Shown here: positions 4,317 through 39,067 of the stretch, piece by piece
Layout: each line of letters starts with the position of its first letter
How positions within the stretch are numbered: position 1 is the stretch's first letter
From: an uncultured Granulosicoccaceae bacterium
Lineage (GTDB): Bacteria > Pseudomonadota > Gammaproteobacteria > Granulosicoccales > Granulosicoccaceae
Reading direction: 5' to 3'
Assembly: GCA_937951345.1 (NCBI GenBank)
Contig: CALFCF010000003.1
Span: forward strand, 1-44,841
Length of the DNA stretch: 44,841 bases
The notes under the pieces: model-generated
Told to the model about the DNA's origin: nothing
Databases searched by the model: none
The model's input: the letters and a program-made list of their open reading frames with translations, nothing else
Program-made: the position numbers and the translations under genes

Positions 4317-4471
4317 AGAAGCCATCTCAAAATTGAGATTGCGCGCTCAGCCAAAGCGTGGTCGCTCGAGCAGCGCAGTTTACACGCAGTAAATGAGCAG
4401 CGCAGAACGGCACACAACGCAGAATCAGCGTACAGGACTCGGCGTCCGCGATCAATTTTGAGATAGCTTCT
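4317..4471. repeat. 155-bp intergenic element with about 25-bp terminal inverted repeats
   Basis: The left end AGAAGCCATCTCAAAATTGA (from 4317) matches the reverse complement of the right end (4447-4471), which reads AGAAGCTATCTCAAAATTGA then TCGCG; one mismatch falls in the first 20 bases. The interior is GC-richer and carries repeated GCGCAG-like words. The ends and size look like a MITE or a structured repeat of the ERIC/RUP kind. No open frame inside is convincing. No second copy was found in the window. Confidence 0.6.
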
Positions 4472-19411: not shown

Positions 19412-19738
19412 GACATGTAGCGACAGACTATAGAGTCATCAAATTAGCGGGATTCCAGTCTATCTTACCTTTGTGTAAATTCAAATGATTCACGCATTCA
19501 ACACCACAACTCGTTGTATTTACTGAAATAAACCTGAACGAATCAAAAATATATTTGTTAAGTTTGATTCATGAACAACCAATTACTAACAAACTCCCTA
19601 TGTCAGATAGCGCTTTCAAAAACCGTAAGTGACATGTAGCAACCGAATTTTGCGTTCTTTTTTCCTTTCTATCGGTAAGCTATGCAGGCCTCCAACATTT
19701 TTCCTTCGGTTAACTGATATTTCAACGCCAGGGGACCT
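19412..19738. other. Intergenic stretch upstream of the cytochrome c gene
   Basis: No supported gene. An inverted repeat GAATCAAA (19540-19547) / TTTGATTC (19563-19570) with a 15-base AT-rich centre lies about 130 bases upstream of the cytochrome start and could be an operator or promoter-associated dyad. Confidence 0.35.
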
Positions 19739-19864
19739 CTGATTTATTAGGCGAGGCAGGCAGGGCAAGGCGAAATTTGGCGAAAAAGCGGAGTGTTTAT
19801 GCGAATACATGAGTGTTGTGAGCCGAATTTCAACGCAGCCATGGCAACGCAGGCGATAAATCAG
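19739..19864. repeat. 126-bp element with CTGATTTAT terminal inverted repeats
   Basis: It begins CTGATTTAT and ends ATAAATCAG, perfect 9-bp inverted ends. The interior is built of GGCGA-rich words (GGCGAGGCAGG, GGCGAAATTTGGCGAAAA, CAACGCAGGCG). The composition and ends look like an intergenic repeat or MITE remnant rather than unique sequence. It was seen once in this window, so its repeat status is an inference. Confidence 0.45.
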
Positions 19865-33119: not shown

Positions 33120-34118
33120 ATGGCATCTATTTTAGAAATCTTGAGCTCGAGTCAGGCGCTCAAGCGCTATACAACCGGACTTATTGCGGTTGCCATGTTT
33201 CTGTTTTGCGCTTACTTCGCCATACCATTTCTGGTTGATTTACCGGATATTCAAATCCGCGTGCTTCAGGCAATAAAACTGGCCGCCGGCCTGATGGTTA
33301 TTTTGGGAGCTCTGCATATATTCCCACTGATCCAACACCTGAAGAATGTCAAAGCAGGCATATCGCCACTGTTTCCACGACAAAAGTCGGAAAGCTATCA
33401 ACCCTGGCCAGCGCATTCAAACCCGGTGGCTAACAGGGCTGGCTGGGGCCCGATTGAAACAGACTATGAAGTGGGAAGTAAGAAAACCCGGTTACATGTA
33501 GATTCGAAATACGATGCCCGACAAACAGCGTCACGCACACGTATCGGCTTTACCTTCTTCTACCTGCTCATCGGACTTGCATTGGCAGCGTTTCCCATTG
33601 TAATGAATGCGCTGGTTTATGAAATCACACCCCCGGAAATCGAGTCACTGCAAAAACTGGCCGACCAAACCTGGCCGCTCTTTGCCCTATGTTCGATCGC
33701 GGCTTTCATCACAACATCGGTTATGTTTCTGTCGCGCATGCCACTGGCCGAATTCGACATAGCCAGAGATACGGGGTCAGTGCGATTTACACGGTGTTTT
33801 GGATTTCTGGATAAATTTCTGAAGCCTGAGCGTCAATCATTCCGGGTCAGCGAAGTAGCCGGATTTCAGTTGGCCTACCATCGCTCGAAAACTTTCAGAC
33901 GGAACAATCGTAGAGTTTGCCAATACGAACTGATCCTCGTGCTGAATGATAGCAGTCGGCATCTGTTGACCAAAGGCAGTCGTCATCGAGCCGTACTAAA
34001 AGATGCCATTACAATCGCAAAGTTTCTTGGTGTACATGTTTGGGACCGGTCGGGTTATTACCAGCCAAACGATCCTGAATTCATGTCACAAACAGACCCG
34101 GTATTGCAGCCACTCTAG
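33120..34118 (+). CDS. Uncharacterised four-helix membrane protein
   Basis: I do not recognise the family. The 332-residue product has two N-terminal helices (about 20-38 and 52-70), a soluble loop, two further helices (about 140-160 and 190-208) and a C-terminal soluble domain with a PH-like strand pattern (LAEFDIARDTGSVRFTR ... YELILVLNDSSRHLLT). Such layouts occur in bacterial membrane proteins of unknown function. Its stop codon TAG lies inside the CTAG end of the 249-bp repeat at 34115, so the natural C-terminus may have been cut by insertion. Divergent from panB. Confidence 0.75.
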   Translation: MASILEILSSSQALKRYTTGLIAVAMFLFCAYFAIPFLVDLPDIQIRVLQAIKLAAGLMVILGALHIFPLIQHLKNVKAGISPLFPRQKSESYQPWPAHSNPVANRAGWGPIETDYEVGSKKTRLHVDSKYDARQTASRTRIGFTFFYLLIGLALAAFPIVMNALVYEITPPEIESLQKLADQTWPLFALCSIAAFITTSVMFLSRMPLAEFDIARDTGSVRFTRCFGFLDKFLKPERQSFRVSEVAGFQLAYHRSKTFRRNNRRVCQYELILVLNDSSRHLLTKGSRHRAVLKDAITIAKFLGVHVWDRSGYYQPNDPEFMSQTDPVLQPL

Positions 34119-34363
34119 CCTGCTCGATTCACGAAGGCGAAAACAGTGACAATGAAAACTAAGCAATTTCCAGTTAGAAACGCAGTTTTAGCGTCGCTGT
34201 GGGTGTTCGCACACTGTTTTCTATTCACCACCAGTGCCCGTCTGCCGTCGCAGCTCACACCATTCAGCTCAACCCGTAGATTTCTACGAATTTCGCTCAA
34301 TCGTGCGACCTGCTTAGGTAGCCAGTCTCTGGTGGCGAACCCTTCATGAATAGAGCAGGCTAG
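34115..34363 (-). repeat. 249-bp CTAG-ended palindrome-rich element, complete copy
   Basis: It runs CTAG to CTAG and, reverse-complemented, aligns over its full 249 bases with 38819-39067 with 16 differences and no gaps (about 94% identical). Terminal inverted repeats are imperfect here because one end has drifted (CTAGCCTGCTCGATTCACG). The inner hairpin CGTAGA-AA-TCTACG is kept; its outer arm is damaged. An 85-codon frame spans the copy, but differences between copies are mostly amino-acid-changing (11 of 16), arguing against a protein. Together with the short bare stretch to 34425 it fills the gap after the membrane protein gene. Confidence 0.9.
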
Positions 34364-38818: not shown

Positions 38819-39067
38819 CTAGCCTGCTCTATTCATGAAGGGTTCGCCACCAGAGTCTGGCTACCTGAGCAGGTCGCACGATTGAGCGAAATTCGTAGAA
38901 ATCTACGGGTTGAGCTCAATCGAGTGAGCTGCGACGGCAGACGGGCACTGGGGATGAATACAAAACAGTGTGCGAATACCCGCAGCGACGCTAAAACTGC
39001 TTTTCTAACTGGAAATGGCTTAGTTTTCAGTGTCACAGTTTTCGCCTGCGTGAATAGAGCAGGCTAG
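38819..39067 (+). repeat. 249-bp CTAG-ended palindrome-rich element, reference copy
   Basis: This copy has perfect 17-bp terminal inverted repeats (CTAGCCTGCTCTATTCA). In the middle lies a nested palindrome: outer arms CGATTGAGC (38879-38887) and GCTCAATCG (38914-38922), inner arms CGTAGA (38894-38899) and TCTACG (38902-38907). It encodes no transposase. The same sequence is found inverted at 34115-34363, and the end alone at 1-23. All five ends seen in the window are CTAG, so either CTAG (or its TA) is the duplicated target, or it is part of the element. It looks like a non-autonomous MITE-type element. Confidence 0.9.

Follow-up and report, generated by a model that had tools for sequence, protein, structure and literature searches.

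The 249-bp repeat analysed here is, with a probability that we put at roughly 0.88 on the strength of sequence comparison, a MITE of the IS1380 type, that is, a gene-less element with a 4-bp YTAR duplication that would depend for its movement on an IS1380-family transposase supplied in trans. The element proper is 241 bp long (CCTGC...GCAGG) and has terminal repeats CCTGCTCTATTCAYGAAGG. In the mechanism that we propose, an IS1380-family transposase would bind these repeats and move, or would at one time have moved, the 241 bp in trans, each insertion duplicating a 4-bp YTAR target. The MITE carries no transposase gene, and its sole long reading frame, of 82 codons, ends in the terminal TAG.

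The window, by which we mean the whole 44,841-nucleotide stretch of DNA under study, is all of contig C3 in a draft genome of 115 contigs and 4.49 Mb from a marine bacterium of the Granulosicoccaceae. It contains two complete copies, A and the inverted B (Table 1), each of 249 bp and 16 substitutions apart after inversion; of a third copy, in minus orientation, only the left end is present. CTAG forms all five visible element ends. The terminal inverted repeat is perfect over 17 bp in copy A and over 11 bp in copy B, with one mismatch at position 12, and copy A differs from the consensus of 44 copies at 8 positions. These measurements bear out the description given in a sequence-only reading of the window, which had also spoken of an element present three times; that count is right for the window and wrong for the genome, where at least 52 copies of full length occur besides partial ones.

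Table 1. Positions in the window of the 249-bp copies and of the parts of copy A
Feature	Position	Strand	Basis or remark
Complete copy A, 241-bp MITE (38823-39063) with CTAG each side	38819-39067	+	Sequence; consensus comparison
Left target tetranucleotide CTAG, probable 4-bp YTAR duplication	38819-38822	.	Inferred from TTAA/CTAG alternation and the L230 TTAG direct repeat
Right target tetranucleotide CTAG	39064-39067	.	As for the left tetranucleotide
Left terminal inverted repeat CCTGCTCTATTCATGAAGG	38823-38841	+	16-base core against L232 IS1380 ends: 1 and 3 mismatches
Right terminal inverted repeat, inward reading CCTGCTCTATTCACGCAGG	39045-39063	-	Sequence
Long nested left hairpin of the interior (predicted)	38844-38957	+	Fold; of the 23 pairs changed on both sides, 15 lie in helices 2-4
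Right hairpin domain, helix 5 (predicted)	38961-39043	+	Its TTAG (element about 202-205) is the second-MITE nesting site in several other copies
Complete copy B, inverted	34115-34363	-	CTAG 34115-34118 includes the TAG stop of gene 33120-34118
Left end of third copy, cut by contig start	1-23	-	Sequence

A genome-wide count, proposed earlier as a check, did turn up further copies. Our census drew on 1.77 Mb of stretches from the 4.49-Mb genome; 44 of the full-length copies (at least 52) are exactly 249 bp, and partial copies are numerous, contig ends truncating many of them. Searching the 4.49-Mb genome gave 141 occurrences of the 17-base end pattern and none of its reversed control, which, together with a fold 9.8 standard deviations below dinucleotide shuffles, excludes chance. 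Individual copies lie about 8 substitutions (about 3%) from the consensus and form a star-like tree with few supported forks, the pattern expected after a burst, and this suggests a fairly recent one. The flanks of the copies are unique, adjoining MITEs excepted, and they yielded no usable empty sites within paralogous repeats when such sites were sought through them. Copy number, tree shape and unique flanks support the proposal of a non-autonomous, multicopy element spreading through the genome. Of 70 inspected contig starts, 21 fall in the 249-bp element or no more than 10 bp from it, and the element accounts for part of the fragmentation of the draft. We had also considered a retroelement-like or one-ended mode of spread, suggested by the first solo ends all being left ends; right-anchored truncations (C42, C59, C95) ruled it out.

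Several other forms exist beside the 249-bp one. Short forms of 45 and 51 bp retain the outer stem alone; their junctions are direct repeats, TTCG or TTCGCC, which is what loss of the hairpin through slippage would give. A 131-bp form retains the right hairpin. The congener G001 also has a 51-bp form (L180/L222, G001:C240:16632-16682); its outer stem differs from that of the 51-bp form in the present species, so the form has either had more than one origin or spread by itself. In composites of 393 bp a second, IS5-like MITE is inserted at the right-hairpin TTAG, and since this guest occurs in both orientations and in more than one length, at least two insertions must have taken place.

The bases beside the element are informative about its target. 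Both end tetranucleotides are CTAG in 33 of 51 copies and TTAA in two, while one copy has TTAA/GTAA and two combine a CTAG end with a TTAA end (ends read inward). The TTAA copies are dispersed over the tree among CTAG copies, with 5 changes, the maximum, against a shuffled mean of 4.8; this scatter implies that all four bases are acquired from the target, and it excludes the TTAA copies as an inherited subfamily. We infer that insertion of the 241-bp element duplicates four bases of the form YTAR, in nearly all cases CTAG and in some TTAA. CTAG and TTAA are palindromes, and a direct repeat as such is evident in a related insertion sequence alone (TTAG, locus L230).

The sequence-only reading had offered TA or CTAG as the target, with an IS630/Tc1-like helper. 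CTAG survives, as one form of a 4-bp YTAR site; duplication of TA alone does not, since TTAA replaces CTAG in unrelated copies. A MITE of the IS630/Tc1-mariner type would duplicate TA, would begin GCCTGC and would prefer C-TA-G sites, and one feature does look as TA-only duplication predicts: among 13 single-base deviations in the end tetranucleotides, about the number predicted by copy divergence, 7 affect the outermost base (to A, T or G) and 0 the innermost, whose G never varies alone. In the TTAA copies, however, which form no clade, an outermost T always goes with an innermost A. The genome, moreover, has no match to the DDE_3 transposase profile (PF13358), and the matching terminal repeats are those of IS1380 elements, one of them with a 4-bp TTAG direct repeat. 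An IS630/Tc1-type origin is, in our judgement, very improbable.

The two mixed copies, G000:C104:3436-3684 and G000:C16:73295-73543, have their CTAG and TTAA in reciprocal arrangement and are not the product of simple 4-bp duplication; reciprocal recombination or donor carry-over could each yield them. IS1380 is the bacterial family usually linked to piggyBac, and it is conceivable, if quite unlikely, that IS1380-type joining proceeds in a piggyBac-like manner, without repair synthesis, the tetranucleotide overhang of the donor pairing with that of the target. Were this true, heteroduplex ends would leave CTAG on one side and the target's own tetranucleotide on the other. Such joining would suit both the reciprocal CTAG/TTAA copies and those with CTAA, TTAG, ATAG or GTAG on one side, and all of these are explained equally well by plain mutation or by recombination from copy to copy.

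The IS1380-type assignment follows from IS1380 elements in related genera, which share both the terminal repeat and the YTAR tetranucleotide. Using a degenerate terminal-repeat pattern on 35 genomes of Granulosicoccaceae, we found related ends in 7, with zero in controls; these ends come from several families of MITEs roughly 165 to 300 bp long, and the same repeat terminates other MITEs in G003, G006, G008, G027, G029 and G033. IS1380 transposases (PF13701/NF033539) were found in 7 of the 35 genomes, 6 above the curated cut-off and including G027, G022 and G029, and NCBIfam placed both transposases tested in IS1380, well above cut-off. At locus L232 of G027 the IS1380 element is 1,695 bp long, with inward ends CCTGATCTATTCATGA and CCTGGATTATTCATGA and CTAG beside each. 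These ends, the two best matches of the locus to the MITE repeat (1 and 3 mismatches of 16), face inward and bracket the transposase; the right one matches the end of a MITE in G027 at 18 of 19 bases, CCTG[G/C]ATTATTCATGAGGG. The IS1380 element at L230 (G022) has a TTAG direct repeat on either side, and the insertion sequence copies in G029 have ends CCTGAATAATTCAT and CCTGCATTATTCAT with adjoining tetranucleotides that are mostly YTAR; the terminal repeats of both are shared with the MITE but are more diverged than those of L232. The insertion sequences at L232 and L230 have the same CCTG-N4-ATTCATGA repeat beside YTAR as our element, which differs from them in being 241 bp, in lacking a transposase gene and in showing no similarity to an IS1380 interior that we could see. 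Published IS1380 members (ISPa33a, IS1247) carry repeats of 16 bp and duplicate 4 or 5 bp (PMC4133298, PMC3281130), and the 4-bp YTAR duplication here agrees with the 4- to 5-bp range of that family. Taken as they stand, the shared ends and targets suggest an IS1380 transposase as the mover of these copies.

An insertion sequence with the same ends, which the sequence-only reading had recommended looking for, was therefore found in related genera and not in the genome's own assembly. A PF13701 (IS1380) profile search of that draft assembly gave no match, a result that bears on present activity and not on origin, and no IS1380 transposase was found in G001 or G003, the carriers of the closest relatives. 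The helper's absence here may reflect loss or an assembly gap: the draft breaks at repeats, so a multicopy insertion sequence could be missing from it. Profile searches of the same genome with PF13358 (IS630) and PF13546 (IS701) found none, and a search with PF01609 found one IS1182 and one frameshifted IS5 element, both with unrelated ends. Among the ends listed for this genome no long element was bounded by two perfect ones, nor did any long element lie between MITE-like ends in a scan of 0.68 Mb that allowed up to 4 mismatches. The IS1182-family transposase is intact and lies at a contig end (L198, end of G000:C9); the frameshifted IS5-family transposase (L199, G000:C93) has ends TAGTCGGCCCTGA.

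That IS5 element brings to mind MITEPsy1 of Pseudomonas syringae, a gene-less MITE of IS5 type and 100 nt that duplicates CTAG or YTAA (PMC3189936). Our element is likewise small and gene-less with a CTAG target, and differs in length, in terminal repeats and in the IS5-type helper. An IS5-type MITE like MITEPsy1 would account for a target of this kind, and the genome does have both a frameshifted IS5-family transposase and IS5-like MITEs. The terminal repeats tell against it: they read CCTGCTCTATTCATGA here and GGAAGGTCTGAAAAAGCC in MITEPsy1, the end repeat of L199, the sole IS5 element found, is unrelated and does not match that of the MITE, and no IS5-family element with CCTGCTCTATTCATGA ends was found, whereas IS1380 ends do match. 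We find this origin scarcely credible and retain the IS1380 assignment.

Both window sites are empty in G002, a member of the same genus. Its intergenic region orthologous to the site of copy A holds no element; copy B is placed exactly on the stop codon of gene 33120-34118, whose TAG lies within the CTAG, and the G002 orthologue of this gene ends normally, again with no element. The comparison of filled and empty sites suggested earlier thus succeeded as to presence and absence, and stopped short of the exact junction, the intergenic DNA being too diverged to be aligned base for base.

Placement is intergenic, genes being taken here as ORF calls of at least 100 aa and not as annotation. None of 36 testable copies breaks an ORF of at least 150 aa, which random CTAG sites do in 275 of 600 cases. 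At the right end the nearest gene is directed into the element in 53 of 68 cases, at the left end in 31 of 69 (Fisher 1e-4). Of the copies between genes of the same direction, 17 lie antisense to them and 4 sense (binomial p 0.007), and 14 copies lie between convergent genes against 2 between divergent ones. Read from left to right the element keeps one frame open over 82 codons; in the opposite direction each of the three frames meets a stop within 16 codons, and this asymmetry is possibly one reason for the orientation bias.

The nested palindrome noted at the centre of the element is borne out by predicted folding: the plus strand has a fold of -122.6 kcal/mol, with a z of -9.8 against dinucleotide shuffles. 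The plus strand is the stabler in 51 of 51 copies, by a mean of 24.5 kcal/mol, and the same holds in the G001 and G003 copies. In an alignment with the elements of G001 and G003, 90.7% of cells pair and 23 of 76 pairs are changed on both sides, against 8.0 in shuffles; sliding the partners abolishes the pairing signal, a lenient control in that the structure was derived from the same alignment, of six sequences only. As modelled, then, the interior is a large nested hairpin in which compensatory changes, between species and across genera, preserve the pairing. Either structural selection at the RNA level or palindrome-correcting template switching or replication errors could conserve it. A search of Rfam with the element, at E values up to 1, gave one chance microRNA match only.

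These observations raise the question of whether the element persists mainly as a structured RNA or DNA used by the host, such as a 3'-end or operon hairpin, and is no longer a mobile parasite. The compensatory changes, the advantage of the plus strand in every copy here and in those of relatives, the sparing of ORFs and the strong orientation bias toward gene ends would all suit such a role. Purifying selection, however, keeps any parasite out of genes, so that a lack of gene insertions is expected in either case; the strand transcribed is more often the less stable one, the tested sites are empty in the congener, and the copies form a recent star-like burst. We consider persistence through host use unlikely. 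Whatever its cause, the 3'-end orientation bias, together with a hairpin found across species, suggests effects on neighbouring transcripts.

The MITE of IS1380 type described here represents a new family, within a kind of genomic parasite that is well known, and not a new mechanism. When 84,980 species were searched with a pattern that excludes the genome's own copies, the only matches were in two draft genomes of Granulosicoccaceae; no homologue was found outside this family, and viral, phage and plasmid collections gave no match to the element. ERIC and Correia elements are intergenic, hairpin-forming and multicopy, with TA duplications; our element shares the first three properties and differs in duplication and sequence, the comparison having been made by Rfam search only. 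MITEPye1, of IS1182 type (PMC11578231), and the TIMEs, of Tn3 type and 262 bp (PMC4133298), are also gene-less, with inverted-repeat ends and a long predicted stem-loop; they have other helper families and duplications and few copies per genome, against at least 50 here. In the portion of the literature covered we found no description of IS1380-derived MITEs. If our assignment is right, IS1380 gains high-copy miniature derivatives across one bacterial family, and the set of MITEs would display the way in which targets are recognised in IS1380-type transposition (YTAR, mainly CTAG) and offer natural substrates for tests of the joining step.

Other repeats accompany the element. A second MITE family, IS5-like, about 142 bp long and with ends GGAACCTCTGATTTATTA, lies at 19726-19864 (minus) in the window and at about 27 other places in the stretches covered; it has TTAG/CTAG duplications, and one and the same TTAG of the 249-bp element has repeatedly been its insertion site. 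A third repeat, roughly 155 bp long and with TA-GAAGCCATCTCAAAATTGA as its ends, occurs at 4318-4469 in the window and at about 25 other places (C90:11598-11746 and C94:18879-19037 among them), is often found beside CTAG, and directly adjoins the 249-bp element in C25 and C62. At G000:C9:102773-103330 a 249-bp copy and a diverged CCTGCTTTATTTTTG...ATAATGCCGG-ended element share a single CTAG, now CTGG; the insertion site here was the border of a related, older element.
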